Below, in pieces: positions 8,718-18,629 of a stretch of DNA of 64,000 nucleotides (position 1 is its first letter; each line of letters opens with the position of its first letter). Location of the stretch: positions 34,521 through 98,520 of the forward strand of contig JAIDDH010000104.1 in NCBI GenBank assembly GCA_029055435.1, given 5' to 3'. A program made the position numbers and the translations under genes. This stretch comes from Acetatifactor sp. GTDB taxonomy: Bacteria > Bacillota > Clostridia > Lachnospirales > Lachnospiraceae. The notes below the pieces were generated by a model. It was not told the origin of the DNA. It did no database searches and was given only the letters and a program-made list of their open reading frames with translations.

Positions 8718-10011
8718 TTACACTAAAGCATCCGTCTGTCTGCGCATAAATGTCTCCATGTCTATCACACTGCCGTTTAGTCTGGACTCTTCCGCCGCGA
8801 AGGCTATCATATGACTCTCACAGGAAATGCCGATTTCCGTCACCCGGTCTCCCGTCTCCTCCCCTCGCAGCACACGCACAAAATCTCTGACCAAACCCTC
8901 ATCACCGCCGCCGTGTCCGATATGTCCAAACTGCCCGTTCTTCGTATCTATCTCCTCAGTATGCTTGGTCAGAAAGTCTGTCACCCAGATTTTTTCCTGC
9001 TCAAGACTGCCGCGCAGATACCCTTTCGTACCCATAATAGTCATTTCTCTCTCAATGGCCGGCGTAAATGCTGCCATGGTAAAGGCCACCGTGACCTCAT
9101 CCTCAAACTCCAGATTCACCACCATATGATCCACAACATTGTTGTCGCACTGAAACACACATCTTCCGTAGGGACCTGTCTTGACCGCCTCCATCAGTTT
9201 CTCCTGTGTGGGATTCGGATCGCCCGTGGCGGCAGCCTGAAACCAATAGGACGTGTCAGGACTGCAATATACCTTAACGGCGTCATAGGGACATTCCGCA
9301 GCATGGATACAGCCGTCCGTACACCGCGGCGGAGCCCCCTTTGGCATATGCGCTCTGTTAAAATACTTCAGTGATCCAAAGGAAGACAGTCTTGTACATT
9401 TTTTCCCTATAATCCACCGCAGCAAATCCATATCATGACAGGACTTTGCCAAAATCATGGGAGAACTGGTTTCACTGTTGTTCCAGTTGCCCCTAAACAT
9501 AACTGTGAGCCTGATGATAATCTCCCACTGCCTCAATATGATTGATGTGTACGATCTCCCCAATCAAACCGCTGTCCACGATCTCCTTCACTTTTCTGTA
9601 ATGATTGGCATATCGCAGTACATGGCAGACTAAAACTCTGACCCCGGCCTTCCGGGCTGCCTGTTCTATCAGAGAACACTCTCGGGCAGTAGGTGCTATA
9701 GGTTTCTCTAACAGAATATCGTAGCCGGCCTCGATGGCTTTCATAGTCGGTTCAAAATGCATCTGATCCTGTGTACAGATAAACACAGCGTCGGCAAATT
9801 TTTGTCTCTGAAGACATGCCTGCCAGCTGACAAAACAGTTTTCTGCGGGAATATCATGCAGCCTGCGCATATGTTCCCGCCGTATATCGCTTGGATCTGC
9901 CACACCGACGATCTGCAGTTTGTCGGGATTTTTCAGCGCATAAGGCGCGTAGGCATCCGTGCCTCTTCGTCCCGCACCCAGAACAATAACTTTGATTGGT
10001 TCCATAGTCAT
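8718..10011 (-). pseudogene. Gfo/Idh/MocA family oxidoreductase, split by a 1-nt frameshift near 9493-9498
   Basis: N-terminal ORF 10011..9493 (KVIVLGAGRRGTDAYAPYAL...LLEKPIAPTARE...DYHQAHSYV*) continues in another frame in ORF 9563..8718 (RGNWNNSETSSPMILAKSCHDMDLLRW...); removing one T of GTTTAGG restores HSYVRGNWNN. Confidence 0.88.
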
Positions 10012-10174
10012 ACCTCCTGCCCGCTTCAGCGGATTTCTGATATTTTACAGGTTACAGTGTCAGTGTAGTTCAAATTTTTAAAAGCTTCATTCATAATAAT
10101 GCGGTTTTATTTGAAATTTCTTAGGAATTATGACATATTATAAAATGAGGAGATTAAAATGGAGGAGATTTCAT

Positions 10175-11005
10175 ATGCCGATCATATTGCCCGAGGGAAA
10201 AAGGATTACCATAAAACACAATGTGCGTCCTGCCGATTATCGAATGCATTCCATGCAAATGGCCACGGATCACTATAATATCGGCTACGTTATCTCCGGC
10301 GACAGGCGCACCATCACGCCGACCCAGAGCTTTGATTACCACGCCGGCGACGTGGCTATGGCGCCGCCTTTTTTATATCATTACACAATTCCCCAGAGCG
10401 CCCTGCCCTATGAGAGTTACATCATCAAATTTTCTCCAGATTTTATTGAGCCCTTCTTCCGACAGATCGGAAAATATATGATCGACGAACTCTATGAGCA
10501 GAAAGTCTGTCATCTGACCGGACAGTCTCAGGAAAAAGTTAAGCGGATGTTTGGCGAAATGCTATATGAATATGAGAAAGGCACAGAGTATACAGAAGTC
10601 ATTCTACAGGGAATGCTGTTCAGGCTTTTCACAACCATCTGGGAAGAACGTCTGCCGGGCAGCGCCGTCTATTTTCGCACTCCCCTGTCAGAAAAAATTA
10701 TCAGATCCCTGTATATCATAGAACAAAATTATGACTGTAAACTGACGCTGGAAAAACTGGCACGGGAATCAGGCCTCTCCGTCTCCTATTTCTCCAGATT
10801 GTTTTCCGAACAGTTGGGAATGTCCTTTACAGATTATCTGAGCGATGTCCGGATCCGGCATGCACAGTCGCTGCTCGCACAGACCGATAAAACCATTATG
10901 GAGATCGCCCTGGAAACCGGATTCTGTCACGGAGATTATCTCGCCACACAGTTCAAGGCCAAAACCGGTATGACGCCGTCTCAATTCCGGCGAAACTCCA
11001 GATGA
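10175..11005 (+). CDS. AraC family transcriptional regulator
   Basis: N-terminal cupin-like region, C-terminal double HTH (LTLEKLARESGLSVSYFSRLFSEQLGMSFTDYLSDVRIRHAQSLL...TGFCHGDYLATQFKAKTGMTPSQFRR); GGAGGAG RBS before ATG 10175; divergent from the oxidoreductase/nag genes. Confidence 0.93.
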   Translation: MPIILPEGKRITIKHNVRPADYRMHSMQMATDHYNIGYVISGDRRTITPTQSFDYHAGDVAMAPPFLYHYTIPQSALPYESYIIKFSPDFIEPFFRQIGKYMIDELYEQKVCHLTGQSQEKVKRMFGEMLYEYEKGTEYTEVILQGMLFRLFTTIWEERLPGSAVYFRTPLSEKIIRSLYIIEQNYDCKLTLEKLARESGLSVSYFSRLFSEQLGMSFTDYLSDVRIRHAQSLLAQTDKTIMEIALETGFCHGDYLATQFKAKTGMTPSQFRRNSR

Positions 11006-11617: not shown

Positions 11618-11645
11618 TCAAAATGCCTCCTCAACTGGTATTGAT

Positions 11646-11706
11646 TTTCATAGCAGTTAGCTTCATAAAATTATTGATTCTTCTATCCCTTTTATTTTAT
11701 CATAAT
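11646..11706. repeat. 61-bp diverged direct repeat, copy 1 (partner 18569-18629)
   Basis: Ungapped 61-nt alignment with about 10 mismatches, counted by eye. Confidence 0.7.
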
Positions 11707-11791: not shown

Positions 11792-11826
11792 TGAAATGAC
11801 AACTATGACGAATTGTGGTCATTTCA
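11792..11826. repeat. 9-bp stem hairpin downstream of the HlyD-like gene; possible atypical terminator
   Basis: TGAAATGAC ... GTCATTTCA; no clear U-tract. Confidence 0.45.
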
Positions 11827-11846
11827 GATGTTGCTAGAAAAAATAC

Positions 11847-13256
11847 TTAAGAACCCGCTCTATCTCCTACAAGTCTGACCACATTCCCGTTCATCAAATC
11901 GTCCGTAGAAGTCACCACAATCTTTGTATCCCCGCTGATTTCAGCACTTTCAACTGCCGTCATCATATCTGTCTGATCCAAAATGGTGACAAAAACTTTC
12001 CTCACCTTCCATTCCGTGCCCAGAATCCCCTCTCTTTCCTCTGCCACATAAACATAGTCTGCTCCTTCCTCATCATGAATGCACAGGGATGGAATGCAGG
12101 CTGCATAGTTTTCAGTCTGCCACCGGCAGCTTACTTCCACTGTCTGTCCTATGTTGATATCCAGACCTTCGCCGGACATTTCCGCCAAGGTATCCCCATT
12201 TTCTAATTTTTCTAAATAAGCAACCGCCACAGAAGTATTGATACGAGTTCCACCTTCCTGGTTCGCCTTCAACGACAATTCCTCATTAAGTTCCAGTCCA
12301 ATGCCGCCCTTAAATACAGCTTGAATCACTTTCTCGCCGTCATCCAGCGCATACAGAATCCCAGCCTCGTCCTGTGTCCGTTTTCCCACGGCAATGCGGC
12401 ATTCTATGACACGACCTGCGGATTCGCTGTATACCCATCCCTCTGCTTCTTTCAGTTCCTTCAGTTTAAGCAGTTTCTTCTCTTTATGGGCAATCTCCAA
12501 ATCCGTGCTCTCATATGCAGAACTGCTTATGGAACCTTCACTGGCAGCATCCTCTATTGCTCGGGATGCCGCCTGCAGGATGGTATCTTTCTGGCGTTTT
12601 GCATTTTCCAACTCCTGATTACAGGATTTCACATTCTGCTGAAGTTTGAGTCTTTTCTCCTGCAGATTGTACTGCTGCGTAGAATCCCCGCCTTCCACAT
12701 CTTCTCCACTTACATTGCCGTCAGCTTGAAAATCCTCCAGATATTCCTCATAAAGGGAAAGCTCCTGTTTTGCGGCCTCCAATGCCTGCGTGCATGCTTC
12801 TATCCGGGCATCCGCCTCTTTGGCTGCATTATCATAATCTTCCCTTGCTCGTGCTGCTGCCGTCTGCTGCTTTTGCTTCCTGTCATTCTCTGTCTGGACG
12901 CTTTCTTTACGGATGCTTCTTAACTGATTGATTTCCAACTCTTTTTCGTCAATGATCTCCTGAAGGTCATCGATACAGACCTGAAAAAGAGGCTCTCCTT
13001 CCTCAAAGTACGCACCATTCCGTACCACAACAGTAGATACCCTCAATCCGCTTTCCACAAAAATGCCATATTCCTGCTCCTGTTTCACTACACCGTCTAC
13101 TTTAATTTCATGGGAAAAACTGCCGCTGTAAGGAGCCTGTGTGGTAACCTTAGGCAACCTGGAACGGTAGATTCCTTTCGCTATAACTGTGCATACTGCC
13201 ATAAATCCCAGAAAAATGCCGAACCCGATGACAGCATATTTTTTACTTTTTGACAT
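11847..13256 (-). CDS. HlyD/efflux adaptor-like membrane fusion protein
   Basis: Single N-terminal TM, lipoyl-like half motifs (SGLRVSTVVVRNGAYFEEGEPLFQV; GWVYSESAGRVIEC), long central coiled coil. Confidence 0.8.
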   Translation of the reverse strand: MSKSKKYAVIGFGIFLGFMAVCTVIAKGIYRSRLPKVTTQAPYSGSFSHEIKVDGVVKQEQEYGIFVESGLRVSTVVVRNGAYFEEGEPLFQVCIDDLQEIIDEKELEINQLRSIRKESVQTENDRKQKQQTAAARAREDYDNAAKEADARIEACTQALEAAKQELSLYEEYLEDFQADGNVSGEDVEGGDSTQQYNLQEKRLKLQQNVKSCNQELENAKRQKDTILQAASRAIEDAASEGSISSSAYESTDLEIAHKEKKLLKLKELKEAEGWVYSESAGRVIECRIAVGKRTQDEAGILYALDDGEKVIQAVFKGGIGLELNEELSLKANQEGGTRINTSVAVAYLEKLENGDTLAEMSGEGLDINIGQTVEVSCRWQTENYAACIPSLCIHDEEGADYVYVAEEREGILGTEWKVRKVFVTILDQTDMMTAVESAEISGDTKIVVTSTDDLMNGNVVRLVGDRAGS

Positions 13257-13268
13257 ATGTATTTACTC

Positions 13269-14141
13269 CTACCCTTTCAATGCAGAAGACACAATCCCCT
13301 GCTCTAAAGAATCCTTAAAGATTCCGAATACAAAGAAAGATACAATCAGGGTAATCACGGATGCCGCACATGCCCGCCCTGCCTGCGTTGTATCAATCTG
13401 GGCTAAAAACAGGGACAGAGGCCACAAAGACATATCTTTCAAAAAGGCAAGGGGCTCCTCCACCATGTTCCACACCTCAAAAAAACTCAGGACAAACGCT
13501 GATGTAATGCTGCTTTCTGCCAGAGGCATCCCGATTTTCACTAAAATCGTCCACTCATTGGCACCATCTATTCTTGCCACCTCAAACAATTCCGCAGGGA
13601 TTCTCCTGAAGCCTCTATAAATCAGAAACACGGGAAAAGTGGAAAACACGGACGGCAGGATAACCGCCCACTCACTGTCTAGCAGCCCGGCGCTGTTTAA
13701 TACTATATATTTTGCCAGCATGGTGGCCTGAAAGGGCAGCAGCATAAGTACAATATAAATGAAAAACAGCACTCCCCTCCCTTTCTGATAAACTGCAAAA
13801 AACCATGCCCCCGGAATGCCAATCAAAAGATGTCCTACAAGTATACACGCCGCTATTTTTATGGAATTCCAGAATAATACCAGAAAGTCCGGAGCATAAA
13901 AAAGAAGTTCTTTATAGTTTTCCAAAGTGGGATAATCCGGTATCCATTTCCAGCTGATATATCCTTGATTATCCAGCAGTAACGGTGCTGTCCGTTCTTT
14001 CCATTCAATGGCATCGGTAACCGAACCACAGAAGAGTATTACAAGGGGCATACAGATCAGAATTCCCGTCCCAATCATACAGAACAGGGACAGCTTGTCC
14101 ATACACCAACTTAGCCACCGATTTGCATTATTTTTGTTCAT
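13269..14141 (-). CDS. Carbohydrate-type ABC transporter permease (MalG-like)
   Basis: Six-TM permease with EAA-type loop (ELFEVARIDGANEWTILVKIGMPLAESSI). Confidence 0.9.
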   Translation of the reverse strand: MNKNNANRWLSWCMDKLSLFCMIGTGILICMPLVILFCGSVTDAIEWKERTAPLLLDNQGYISWKWIPDYPTLENYKELLFYAPDFLVLFWNSIKIAACILVGHLLIGIPGAWFFAVYQKGRGVLFFIYIVLMLLPFQATMLAKYIVLNSAGLLDSEWAVILPSVFSTFPVFLIYRGFRRIPAELFEVARIDGANEWTILVKIGMPLAESSITSAFVLSFFEVWNMVEEPLAFLKDMSLWPLSLFLAQIDTTQAGRACAASVITLIVSFFVFGIFKDSLEQGIVSSALKG

Positions 14142-14142
14142 G

Positions 14143-14988
14143 CTAATCCTCCCTGTCCCACTGCCTCCGGAGAAGAAAACTGACCGTCCCCAAGACCGCC
14201 ACCAGCAGCACCGCCCCGGCTGCCAGCTTATCCTGCTCTAAATTCACATACCAATTATTAAATACATTCTGAATCATGTAGATACTCTTCTGGGGATATG
14301 CGCCTCCCACCAAATAGACCTCCCTAAACGCCTTAAAGGAATTTAAGATAGACACCACAAGGATGGTGAACATACTCCCTTTCAGGCAGGGCAGCGTTAC
14401 TTTGAAAAAAACCTGTACTTTTCCTGCCCCGTCCACCTTTGCCGCATCTATGATTTCTCCGGGTATGGATTTCAGTCCGGCAAGCCAAAGCACCACAGTA
14501 TATCCCAGATTTTTCCACAAATAGCTGATTACCAAAATCAAAAATGCGCTTTTTTCCCCCAGAAAATCCACATGGGTTCCCAATGCCCTGTTTAGGAACC
14601 CCTGTTCCGAGAACAGCAGCTTCCACACCAGAACCATTGTGGCAGCCGGTACTGCCATGGGCAGAAGATACAGATACTTATATCTGTCATATACGGGCTT
14701 TCTGTGAATCATCAACGCAAGACCCAGGCTCAGGATCAGAAGCAGGGGAAGCCCCGCCGCCATAAAACGCAGCGTATTTGCAGCGGCAAGACGGAACGCC
14801 GAATTGCGGAGTACTGTGGCATAATTCTTTATTCCCACAAACTCACCGGACATGGCCGTGCAGAAAGAAGATAGCACAACTTTTGCAAAAGGCACCATCA
14901 CAAAAAAGGTCACTCCTGCAAGGCTTGGCAATAAAAAAAGTACATTTTTATTCCGCAAGGTATATTTCCAATTCTTCTTCCATCTCAT
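14143..14988 (-). CDS. Carbohydrate-type ABC transporter permease (MalF/UgpA-like)
   Basis: EAA-type loop (GEIIDAAKVDGAGKVQVFFKVTLPCLKGSMF); start overlaps the upstream gene by 41 nt. Confidence 0.9.
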   Translation of the reverse strand: MRWKKNWKYTLRNKNVLFLLPSLAGVTFFVMVPFAKVVLSSFCTAMSGEFVGIKNYATVLRNSAFRLAAANTLRFMAAGLPLLLILSLGLALMIHRKPVYDRYKYLYLLPMAVPAATMVLVWKLLFSEQGFLNRALGTHVDFLGEKSAFLILVISYLWKNLGYTVVLWLAGLKSIPGEIIDAAKVDGAGKVQVFFKVTLPCLKGSMFTILVVSILNSFKAFREVYLVGGAYPQKSIYMIQNVFNNWYVNLEQDKLAAGAVLLVAVLGTVSFLLRRQWDRED

Positions 14989-17194
14989 CTACAGCCTCCT
15001 TTATGCCAATCTCTCCTGTCAGTGCCCTCTGTCCATATTCGATCACCGCTTCATATATCCGGTTATCGCAGTAATTCACCCCCGAAACGCTCTCAAACAG
15101 GCTGTCCAGCTTGACAAAATTCTCCGAAGTCGGCCAATAGATTCCCAGAACAGCAAATGTTCCATCCGGGGTACTATATCCAAAATGCATGTATGTTCTG
15201 GTGCTGTCCTCTTTAGGATTTGCCTGCCTCTTCTGATAAGCGCTTTTGTTCACGGGAGTCCCGCTTAACGCTGTGCTGCCCTGAAATTCTTGGGAAAAAA
15301 TATATGTAAGGAACAGCCTGCAGTTCTCCTTATTTTGGGATGCGCTGTTCATTGCCATCAAGCTGACAGGCAGGCAGGTTCCGTAATTCTGCCCCGGCAT
15401 CATCCGGTAACTGCCTCCCACATAGTCCAATTGCCCCTGTGCCAGCGGATAGTCCTCCCATGCGCTGCTTAAATATCCTGCATAGAAAGGCTGTTCAGGA
15501 AACATCAACTTGACAGAGAGAGCCCCTGACAGGCCATGAGAGCCATGCTTCCTTACTAGAACATTCTCCCCATTGCCCCAATTCGTCCCTCCTATATATA
15601 TACTTTCTGTACCTTCCGGCAGTCTTTCCATCTGAAGGTCATAAATCCTCTTCACCTGTGTCAGGAAATCCTCCACCGCAACCCTGTCCAGCGTGCCGTC
15701 TTCCGTCATCCATGCCCCCATGGAGGATTGGGCAAAAAGGCGGAGCGTTTCTTCTGCAGAACGGGTTCCTATCACGGAACCTTCCTGCGCTCCTGCAGCT
15801 TTCTCCAGCTCCTGCGCAAGCTGCTGCAGGCTCTGAATCTCTTCCATTGCCTGAATCTTTTCCGCATCCCCGCCCAATGCGGGCACCGCAAAGGTAAGGG
15901 GCATCACATATTGCCCTGCCTCCGATGCAAACCCGTCTATCACCGGCATAAAATATTCTTCCTCCGGCATAGTTTCCCGCAGAGAAGACAAATCCTCCAA
16001 AACACCTTTTTCTATATAGGAATCAATGGGAAGGTCATCCATTACCAGAATGTCCGGCCCGGTACCTGCTGACAGCTCCGTGCTCAGATTCCTGAGGGCA
16101 TCTTCCTCTGTCATGCCATAGTCCGGCTTCACTCCCACCTCATACCGGATGCTCAGTTCCGGGTATTTTCTGCGGAATGCGCTGACTGCCTGCCGGATAT
16201 TTCCATCCTCGTAAAGGCTGTAAACCCGCAGGCAGCTCTCCGGCTCTGCAGGAAGGGTTTCATCCATGACATAGCGCATCAGTTTCCCGTCCGAATACAA
16301 AATATAAAATATACGCCCCGTTTCCCCTTCCGTCACAGCCATGCCGGCAAATTCTTTATCCACATCGCTGATGCTGTACATGTCTCCGTCAAGAATGCAT
16401 TCCGTTTCCCCGCCGTATAGCTTATAGGAATATATCCCGCTTCGCATCAGCAGGAGGATTTCATCCTCGCCGGAACGGCGGGATCCGCAGGGGTAAAGAA
16501 TCAAAGGAGAAGTCTCAATTACGGAATTGTCCAATTTCCCGGCCAGCAGGGAAGACAGAGTCTCGTCCTGTTTCTCTGCAACTTTTTTGTTCTGCAGATC
16601 ATACAGCAGCACTCCGCTTGAATGAACAACGAATAACATATCTTCATCTGCCGCAAGGTAAAGCGGATAGAAAGTGCTTTCTGTCAAAAACAGCATTTCG
16701 CCGGTTGCCGGGTCGATTTGGTATATCTCGTATCCCTTGCACATATAGAAATAATCTGCTCCATAATAAAAATGGGGGTATTCCTCTTCTTTGATCTTTT
16801 CCAGCAGGATTTCCCTGCCGTCAGCAGTCACCAGCGTATATCTTCGGACACCCTCCGGATATTCCGCCACAATCCTGCTTCCGTCAGGAGCCCCCACTTC
16901 ACAGGATGATGCATAGGAAGCATTATTTCCAGATGCGGCAGGTGGCATTTCTGCCTTTTCAAAAGCCGTTCCGTCATTCATACAGACCATGTCCCCGCCG
17001 TATGATTCTATCAAGCGCAGGTTCTGCTCTCCCTGCACCAGCGCAGTATAATTGCCCCGACTATTCGGCAGCGCGACCTGCTCCTCCACATAGCGCCCCA
17101 TGGCTGCCTGTCCGGAGTTTCCGCAGCCGCTACAAAGCAAAACCAGCACTGTTAGAACAAACAAAGCTCTTATGCAAAATTTCATAATTTCCAC
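14948..17194 (-). CDS. Extracellular solute-binding lipoprotein with large N-terminal propeller-like extension (748 aa)
   Basis: Lipobox-like VLLCSGCGNSG; C-terminal half resembles family-1 SBP (QAVSAFRRKYPELSIRYEV, ELSAGTGPDILVMDDLPID). Confidence 0.85.
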   Translation of the reverse strand: MEIMKFCIRALFVLTVLVLLCSGCGNSGQAAMGRYVEEQVALPNSRGNYTALVQGEQNLRLIESYGGDMVCMNDGTAFEKAEMPPAASGNNASYASSCEVGAPDGSRIVAEYPEGVRRYTLVTADGREILLEKIKEEEYPHFYYGADYFYMCKGYEIYQIDPATGEMLFLTESTFYPLYLAADEDMLFVVHSSGVLLYDLQNKKVAEKQDETLSSLLAGKLDNSVIETSPLILYPCGSRRSGEDEILLLMRSGIYSYKLYGGETECILDGDMYSISDVDKEFAGMAVTEGETGRIFYILYSDGKLMRYVMDETLPAEPESCLRVYSLYEDGNIRQAVSAFRRKYPELSIRYEVGVKPDYGMTEEDALRNLSTELSAGTGPDILVMDDLPIDSYIEKGVLEDLSSLRETMPEEEYFMPVIDGFASEAGQYVMPLTFAVPALGGDAEKIQAMEEIQSLQQLAQELEKAAGAQEGSVIGTRSAEETLRLFAQSSMGAWMTEDGTLDRVAVEDFLTQVKRIYDLQMERLPEGTESIYIGGTNWGNGENVLVRKHGSHGLSGALSVKLMFPEQPFYAGYLSSAWEDYPLAQGQLDYVGGSYRMMPGQNYGTCLPVSLMAMNSASQNKENCRLFLTYIFSQEFQGSTALSGTPVNKSAYQKRQANPKEDSTRTYMHFGYSTPDGTFAVLGIYWPTSENFVKLDSLFESVSGVNYCDNRIYEAVIEYGQRALTGEIGIKEAVDEMEEELEIYLAE

Positions 17195-17198
17195 CCCT

Positions 17199-17813
17199 TT
17201 ACTTTAAATCTGGATGAGGGATTTTTATATCCTCTAGTGTAAGATTCTCAAATTCCTCTATTGTTCCCGTATATTGATACTCAACTATCGATATAACTAT
17301 TATTTTGTGGTTCGTATCAAAATCAATATCATATTCTGTGCCTGCATTTTCTAATCGGGCGATATCCCGAAAAAAAATATTCATGTCGGATTCCGAATAT
17401 TCATAACGTCTTTCTGCCGCCAGTCCGAATGGCCTCACTCCTACTCCTGATTTCGGCTTGCCGAACAGAAATACAACTACGAGCAGAACCAGAAGCACTA
17501 TATTTACAGCAATTGCCGCAAGTAACTTTTTCTTAAAATTAGATGCTTCTTTCCCCATCCTTCGCAGGTTATTGTCCGAACTTTCTTTCACCTCATCCGC
17601 ATTCAGATACCGCCCCGCCAATATTTCATTAATGCTGATTTCATAAAAATCACTCAGTCGCTGCAAGGAATCTATGTCCGGAATACCCCTGCCGGTTTCC
17701 CACCGGGACACCGCTTTATCCGAGACTTGTATTGCCTCCGCCACTTCCTTTTGTTTCATTCCTTTTTGTTTTCTCAATTCACTAAGAAAACACCCTATCA
17801 AATACGCATCCAT
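17199..17813 (-). CDS. XRE-family HTH regulator with a C-terminal TM segment and extracytoplasmic domain
   Basis: LRKQKGMKQKEVAEAIQVSDKAVSRWETGRGIPDIDSLQRLSDFYEISINEIL; TM AIAVNIVLLVLLVVVFLF. Confidence 0.92.
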   Translation of the reverse strand: MDAYLIGCFLSELRKQKGMKQKEVAEAIQVSDKAVSRWETGRGIPDIDSLQRLSDFYEISINEILAGRYLNADEVKESSDNNLRRMGKEASNFKKKLLAAIAVNIVLLVLLVVVFLFGKPKSGVGVRPFGLAAERRYEYSESDMNIFFRDIARLENAGTEYDIDFDTNHKIIVISIVEYQYTGTIEEFENLTLEDIKIPHPDLK

Positions 17814-17934
17814 TGCTATCCTCCCTATGTCATACTCTTAATGTAATTTTACTCCTCATCTGTATTTTTTCACCCTATGCTGCATAGAGTGCAGTAAATA
17901 TGGCATATTATTTTTTCTTACGGTGATAGACTAT

Positions 17935-18055: not shown

Positions 18056-18573
18056 TCAATAAACTGGATATACTGTTTTCTATTTATAGCAGTGGAATTG
18101 TTCAAATACCATTCAAATGATTCTTTCAATCCTTCTTCCAGTGATTTTGTCTCCGGCATCAGCATCTCTTGAGATGTCACCTCAAGGCAATATTCATAGT
18201 CATAAAAGCTAAAGTAGCAGGTTTTTTATCCAGAATAATATCCATGAACCGGCACAAATCATTTATATGAAAAAACTGCAGCCTCAATTGTCCCTCTTTG
18301 GGCAAATAGAATTTTCTGTTATTTAATGCACATTCAAAAACAAACGCTTCCCGATATAAGTTGTTCATCGGTCCATACAAATATGGCGGACGTAAAATAT
18401 AGGCGTTGGGATTTCGTTTGGTCAATGTCTGTCAGCTTCAATCAATGTAACTCCCTCTGATTGAGCTTTGCTGTTCCGATTCAAAACAAATACATGATAT
18501 CCTTTTTTGACATAATACTCTGCCGCATACCGGCTGGCAAAAACTGTACCGCCTGTAATTAATACGTTTTTCA
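18040..18573 (-). pseudogene. NAD-dependent epimerase/dehydratase remnant with internal deletion and frameshift
   Basis: N-term MKNVLITGGTVFASRYAAEYYVKKGYHVFVLNRNSKAQSEGVTLIEADRH*; middle RNPNAYILRPPYLYGPMNNLYREAFVFECAL...DLCRFMDIILDKK; C-term in another frame SFYDYEYCLEVTSQEMLMPETKSLEEGLKESFEWYLNN...YIQFIDTNFN*. Confidence 0.85.
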
Positions 18574-18629
18574 TAGCCGTTATCTCCGCTAAATTATTGA
18601 TTTCTCTATCCTTTTTATTTTATTATAAT
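18569..18629. repeat. 61-bp diverged direct repeat, copy 2, spanning the epimerase-remnant start codon and upstream region
   Basis: See copy 1 at 11646-11706. Confidence 0.7.

Follow-up and report, generated by a model that had tools for sequence, protein, structure and literature searches.

Importer-type permeases linked to a HlyD/MacA-type adaptor in Acetatifactor and related Bacillota

The CUT1 importers that are energised by an MsmX- or MsmK-type ATPase (AraNPQ, GanSPQ and YesOPQ of B. subtilis, and the importers of S. pneumoniae that work with MsmK) are built from MalF/MalG-like permeases with EAA loops and a solute-binding lipoprotein (SBP); their operons contain no ATPase gene, an orphan MsmX-type ATPase being encoded elsewhere. 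The alginate importer of Sphingomonas, AlgM1M2SS with AlgQ, is likewise MalFG-like and serves for the uptake of large oligosaccharides. To our knowledge, none of these importers has a HlyD/MacA-type adaptor or a MacB core-domain protein, and we know of MacA, YknX and MacB core domains solely from export, detoxification or mechanotransmission. In MacAB-TolC, YknWXYZ and SpMacAB an adaptor of the MacA type, consisting of an N-terminal TM helix and lipoyl, hairpin, barrel and membrane-proximal (MP) domains, is combined with a MacB core domain; TolC is not expected in the Firmicutes that are the subject of this work. What adaptors do in Gram-positive cells, which have no outer membrane, is an acknowledged puzzle (PMC5985334), and the MacB-type core domain of YknZ directly binds the Gram-positive MacA-type adaptor YknX (PMC4887032). 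In BceRS-BceAB modules a transporter adjoins a two-component system.

The locus described here lies in a stretch of 64,000 nucleotides of an Acetatifactor genome (Lachnospiraceae), the whole of which was analysed and is called the window below. On the minus strand, between positions 11847 and 17813, it encodes an XRE regulator, an SBP lipoprotein, two permeases (PermF and PermG) and a HlyD-like adaptor, in this order. The cassette resembles the MsmX- and MsmK-energised importers in its EAA-loop permeases, its SBP lipoprotein and its lack of an ATPase gene, but differs from them by an extra propeller-like domain in the SBP. With the MacAB-type systems it shares the adaptor and, in its basal relatives, a MacB core domain beside the adaptor; it differs in having no MacB/FtsX permease with a LolD-type ATPase, in TM subunits and an ATPase that are of importer type, and in the presence of an SBP. 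Many of its relatives are similar to the BceRS-BceAB modules in that the transporter adjoins a two-component system, but the cassette has no BceB-type permease (its permeases belong to BPD_transp_1), the ATPase is of another class, an SBP and an adaptor are present, and the window cassette encodes no kinase. Each part is of a known kind and, as far as we can tell, the combination has not been described. The pairing of importer permeases with a HlyD/MacA adaptor or with a stand-alone MacB core domain was found in no annotated class and in no open-access full text, a body of literature that leaves subscription journals mostly outside. The original prediction, made from the DNA sequence, had singled out the cassette as an under-described system, and this judgement stands.

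All five genes that had been predicted to be packed together in this order are present, with operon-like spacing. The XRE gene (17199-17813) and the SBP gene (14948-17185) are separated by 13 nt, the SBP gene and PermF (14143-14988) overlap by 41 nt, PermF and PermG (13269-14141) are 1 nt apart, and 12 nt lie between PermG and the adaptor gene (11847-13256). With such short distances the five genes likely form a single transcript, of which the XRE gene is the probable first gene. Just 3' of the adaptor gene there is a hairpin, TGAAATGAC...GTCATTTCA (11792-11826, minus strand; RNA fold -10.5 kcal/mol), which is a possible transcript end, but as it has no T-run it would make a weak intrinsic terminator. 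The cassette is bracketed by 62-nt direct repeats (11645-11706 and 18568-18629) that are 84% identical, and a repeat search of the genome found these two as the sole full-length copies; they may be the scar left by duplication or insertion of a 6.9-kb segment. Pieces resembling a broken NAD-dependent epimerase-type gene lie just upstream of the cassette (18177-18574) and begin within the right repeat copy. A Gfo/Idh/MocA-like oxidoreductase gene at 8718-10011 is apparently split, in a frameshift-like manner, into overlapping frames (9493-10011 and 8718-9563), and adjoins a divergent AraC-type regulator gene (10130-11005). The possibility that the cassette is a defence system was considered and rejected, PADLOC having returned weak HTH matches alone, and low-scoring Pfam matches to HlyE and LktC were taken as chance.

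A pair of BPD_transp_1 permeases with EAA coupling loops and a dedicated extracytoplasmic SBP characterise CUT1 importers, and the cassette encodes all of these. PermF (BPD_transp_1, 3e-18) is MalF-like and has an intact EAA loop, AAKVDGAGKVQVFFKVTLP; when its family profile was compared with the PDB, MalF, SugA and AlgM1 were matched, and AlgM2 too. PermG, MalG-like by its BPD_transp_1 match (3e-13) and by alignment, carries the EAA loop VARIDGANEWTILVKIGMP. The SBP is recognised by Pfam (SBP_bac_8, 7e-10), by profile and by fold matches. Its gene most likely begins at the ATG at 17185, after the leader AAAGGGGTGG, which gives a protein of 745 aa and not the 748 aa, counted from a GTG start, of the original prediction. 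That the protein is a lipoprotein with an extra N-terminal region proved right, although this region comprises about 290 residues (roughly 28-315) instead of about 340. A signal peptide with the lipobox cysteine at position 21 is followed by an all-beta domain (about 28-315) and by the binding domain (about 316-745). Structures were predicted singly for two proteins, the SBP and the adaptor. In the SBP model (pLDDT 85.5) the N-terminal 290 or so residues form about 23 beta-strands, a number compatible with a beta-propeller, and the N-terminal half of the family profile matches designed as well as natural beta-propellers; the prediction thus supports a propeller-like domain, as had been proposed. 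The C-terminal half of the profile matches CbpC (1e-23), and the fold matches are CbpC, YesO and other oligosaccharide or sugar SBPs. In one relative (L097:2-11248) four propeller-SBP genes surround a single permease pair and adaptor, an arrangement that suggests interchangeable ligand receptors on one transporter.

The adaptor has no match in Pfam, and its NCBIfam matches are all below the cutoff (RND_mfp, 6e-7). Its family profile matches ZneB (1e-8), MexJ (4e-7) and MacA (2e-3) in the PDB. The predicted structure (pLDDT 91.0) starts with a TM helix at residues 3-32 and continues with a lipoyl domain, split by an alpha-hairpin (95-270), and then with beta-barrel and MP domains, so that every feature defining an adaptor (TM anchor, split lipoyl domain, alpha-hairpin, beta-barrel, MP domain) can be recognised in the model. 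Foldseek matched this model to AcrA, MexA and MacA at 1e-14 to 2e-16, and the 50 listed PDB fold matches all are, or look like, efflux adaptors (AcrA, MexA, MacA, EmrA, CusB and others). As judged from profile and predicted structure, the product of 11847-13256 is a genuine HlyD/MacA-type adaptor.

The linkage of such an adaptor to importer permeases was assessed in 80 loci from named genomes, which were gathered by PermF sequence patterns alone, that is, with no selection on the adaptor. In the ORF maps of these loci, which are mechanical ORF calls, the adaptor gene was downstream of the permeases in 68 cases, and in eight cases the contig ended too early. The apparent lack of the adaptor in L128 and L150, and of PermF in L103 and L117, turned out to be due to ORF-calling faults; tblastn detected the adaptor in all four. 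The adaptor is present, directly downstream, in all 72 evaluable loci, across several families; the linkage is not due to chance. The original prediction depended on the HlyD-like gene being linked to these permeases in relatives, and every evaluable locus bears this out. The genes for the adaptor, the SBP and the two permeases have a co-linear arrangement in essentially every permease-selected locus, and the closer same-genus homologues have the same gene order. The adaptor-linked permeases group as a single clade in the PermF tree (support 100/98); four other CUT1 pairs of the genome that were opened had no adaptor and fell outside this clade. Distance matrices of the adaptor correlate with those of PermF (r=0.77), PermG (0.77) and the SBP (0.79), at values near that for PermF with PermG (0.82), and the permutation maxima for the structural genes were <=0.24. 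Such correlation is expected for co-inherited genes and is in part a product of common descent.

In many members the adaptor gene is followed by a gene for a membrane protein of 220-480 aa, which resembles the periplasmic core domain of MacB (MacB_PCD). PF12704 was detected at E <=0.01 in 22 of the 29 sampled genes downstream of the adaptor (best 8.5e-12), and the profile of the core-domain family matches MacB (6e-7) and YknZ (1e-5) in the PDB. A stand-alone protein of this type is encoded after the adaptor in most of the basal members; it is absent from the window cassette and from the subclade to which this cassette belongs. The genome of the window, which contains three paralogous cassettes, has the core-domain form as well, on contig C4 (L067). 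The C4-type version of the core domain is single-copy in 59 of the 61 genomes of the genus sample, and the two genomes without it are drafts, 59% and 84% complete. Eight loci of the genus (L045-L049, L067, L072 and L073) were opened as DNA, and in these, contig permitting, the core domain was found beside the adaptor, the permeases and a second propeller-SBP; in the others the cassette was recognised from the co-located coordinates of adaptor and core domain, obtained in separate searches. A MacB/FtsX permease with a LolD-type ATPase is neither present in the window cassette nor conserved in the relatives. In Paraclostridium ghonii (L154:9557-12609) genes for a LolD-like ATPase, distinct from that of the cassette, and for an FtsX-like permease of 787 aa come after the cassette, as if the importer-adaptor operon abutted a MacB-type exporter. 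Downstream of some cassettes (L043:9098-11876 and L041:1639-4304) there is a gene for an NMT1/phosphonate-type SBP, and then one for a fusion protein of an importer permease and an ABC ATPase.

It had been predicted that no ATP-binding subunit is encoded near the cassette, and we found no ABC ATPase signature across the 64-kb window except in a UvrA-like protein (60.8-63.8 kb), which was rejected as a candidate for a hidden ATPase. The description of the cassette as self-contained could not be upheld: more basal relatives (L154, L170, L171 and L173-L176) hold a MalK/MsmX-type ATPase in the operon, and the genome of the window could supply one in trans. These in-operon ATPases score 428-493 bits against the MsmX-type protein of the window's genome. 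The gene order is SBP-PermF-PermG-adaptor-core domain-MsmX in P. ghonii and PermF-PermG-adaptor-core domain-MsmX-SBP in L173-L176, which are distant members of the phylum; L170 and L171 have an order similar to the latter, the adaptor ORF of L171 not having been called. A search of the genome for a shared MsmX-type ATPase had been suggested, and the genome encodes a single OB_MalK ATPase, whose orphan gene lies on contig C101 (G000:C101, L052:6314-7423). Of the multitask signature published for MsmX (PMC7658222), it has residues D77, R104 and K154, with Q and not E at position 110. In Bacillus and Streptococcus it is established that several importers share an orphan ATPase (PMC7658222), and by analogy the C101 protein may serve the window cassette in trans. 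Loci with the core-domain gene, and loci with the ATPase gene in the operon, are scattered over the basal part of the PermF tree; most simply, both genes would be ancestral and would have disappeared from the operon in the window's branch.

The identities of the parts, their linkage and co-variation, and the ATPase and core-domain genes of the relatives are direct results of the computations. With modest confidence we favour the explanation that the products of the four structural genes form one complex, a type I ABC importer that bears a MacA-like assembly on its extracytoplasmic side and draws its energy from a shared MsmX. Within the cell wall or outside it, the lipid-anchored propeller-SBP would capture its ligand, which is probably an oligosaccharide or another glycan-like compound. 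The adaptor, anchored by its TM helix, would form an oligomeric funnel over the permease pair and would hold or guide the loaded SBP onto the permeases, and the MsmX-type ATPase, common to several importers, would bind the intact EAA loops and drive uptake. In the ancestral form the adaptor may have been paired with a stand-alone MacB-type core domain, which in basal members would be its docking partner, and with a dedicated MalK/MsmX ATPase; in the window's branch the ATPase, and perhaps also the core-domain protein of the C4 paralogue, would be used in trans. An envelope signal would control expression; in most relatives a two-component system would relay it, and in the window cassette the membrane-anchored XRE protein. 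Complex formation, import direction, ligand class and ATPase sharing are what we infer. Import is favoured by the intact EAA loops, by the MalK-type ATPase of the complete relatives and by the oligosaccharide-type SBP, which is present in nearly every complete locus. Homology does not prove this direction, since MacA, YknX and MacB core domains are known from export-type roles. It also counts against an importer that the conserved unit includes no glycoside hydrolase, and that the C4-type copy is near-universal and single-copy in the genus sample, which would be unusual for a dispensable sugar importer.

As the adaptor and the core domain are otherwise known from MacAB/YknXYZ, of which they are hallmarks (PMC5985334), the main rival explanation is a machine for export or detoxification. 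The SBP and the MalFG-like domains would then have been repurposed, and MsmX would drive a MacAB/YknXYZ-like mechanotransmission, by which a peptide or wall-active compound is moved off the membrane via the adaptor funnel. Consistent with this, a divergent two-component system often adjoins the cassette, as is the case with lantibiotic-sensing transporters, and at two distant loci there are, near a complete cassette, genes whose products, judged by eye, look like a VanR/VanS two-component system and a VanY carboxypeptidase (L174:2004-4215 and L176:8415-11832), a possible hint of a cell-wall role. However, the TM subunits, with their EAA loops, are domains of the CUT1 importer type and not FtsX/MacB domains, the in-operon ATPase is of the MalK/MsmX and not of the LolD/MacB type, the oligosaccharide-type SBP has been retained in nearly every complete member, and the core domain was lost in the window branch. 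In the light of these features we think that an export function is unlikely.

The regulatory genes bear on a second alternative. The XRE regulator (204 aa; HTH_3, 1e-15) begins with an HTH, spans the membrane once near residues 96-117 and ends with an extracytoplasmic tail of about 85 aa. Apart from the window, a single one of the loci examined, from a relative of the same genus, encodes such a protein (L034, 48% identical, equivalent position). Most other loci have a divergent OmpR-type response regulator and a histidine kinase (HK), and close homologues of one or both were beside the cassette in 46 of the 78 scored loci. The five-part set of the original prediction must be reduced accordingly: permeases, SBP and adaptor are common to essentially all loci, and the XRE-TM regulator is a local replacement of the commoner two-component system, outside the conserved unit. 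It could be argued that SBP, permeases and adaptor constitute a sensory complex, which signals the ligand to the histidine kinase encoded beside it (in the window, to the XRE-TM protein) and in which transport is secondary, similarly to BceAB/BceS. The frequent presence of the two-component genes, the correlation between SBP and HK distances (r=0.86) and the exchange of the regulator for another membrane-anchored protein in the window branch agree with this, but many members, the near-universal core copy among them, lack a two-component system of this family beside the cassette, and the dedicated ATPase of the basal operons implies work beyond sensing, which makes a mainly sensory role, in our estimation, rather improbable.

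An accidental neighbourhood, in which the adaptor of another exporter happens to lie beside an ordinary CUT1 importer, would be conceivable in a single genome, HlyD-like genes being common among Firmicutes exporters (PMC5985334), but the adaptor keeps to this permease clade and not to other CUT1 pairs in 72 of 72 evaluable loci and no conserved exporter subunit lies beside it, so that this explanation is refuted by the linkage data, unless the non-random sample accounts for the linkage, and must be regarded as extremely improbable.

Going beyond the importer with an adaptor, we tentatively propose, as a possibility rather than a probability, that these operons represent a distinct ABC architecture, composed of importer permeases, a MalK-type ATPase, a MacA-like adaptor ring and a stand-alone MacB core domain, in which an export conduit has been adapted for inward delivery or for a new ATP-driven mechanical task across the Gram-positive wall. 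The ancestral operon would have encoded permease, permease, adaptor, core domain, ATPase and SBP, and the window cassette would be a streamlined, ATPase-sharing descendant. Hitherto, adaptors and MacB core domains have been regarded as equipment for export; here they are tied to importer-type permeases and a MalK-type ATPase, and the tie spans several lineages of Clostridia and other Bacillota. This raises the questions whether an adaptor assembly can serve an importer, and what the MacB core domain does once it has been cut from MacB.

A sample of 150 genomes (149 genera) from the window's family contained 42 genomes (41 genera) with a PermF of this clade, and 8 were found among 398 genomes sampled from the phylum. 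With about a quarter of the sampled genera of the family carrying it, and one version near-universal in the genus sample, the system is one of the usual surface components that common gut bacteria possess. The named carriers include Eisenbergiella tayi, Blautia, Roseburia, Dorea, Extibacter muris, Coprococcus catus, Niameybacter massiliensis, Gemmiger formicilis and Paraclostridium ghonii. In a plasmid search the annotation of the PermF matches was either the merely generic 'sugar ABC transporter permease' or absent. Some records labelled Muribaculaceae or Bacillus group fall within the Lachnospiraceae-dominated PermF clade; these may be mislabelled or may represent transferred genes.
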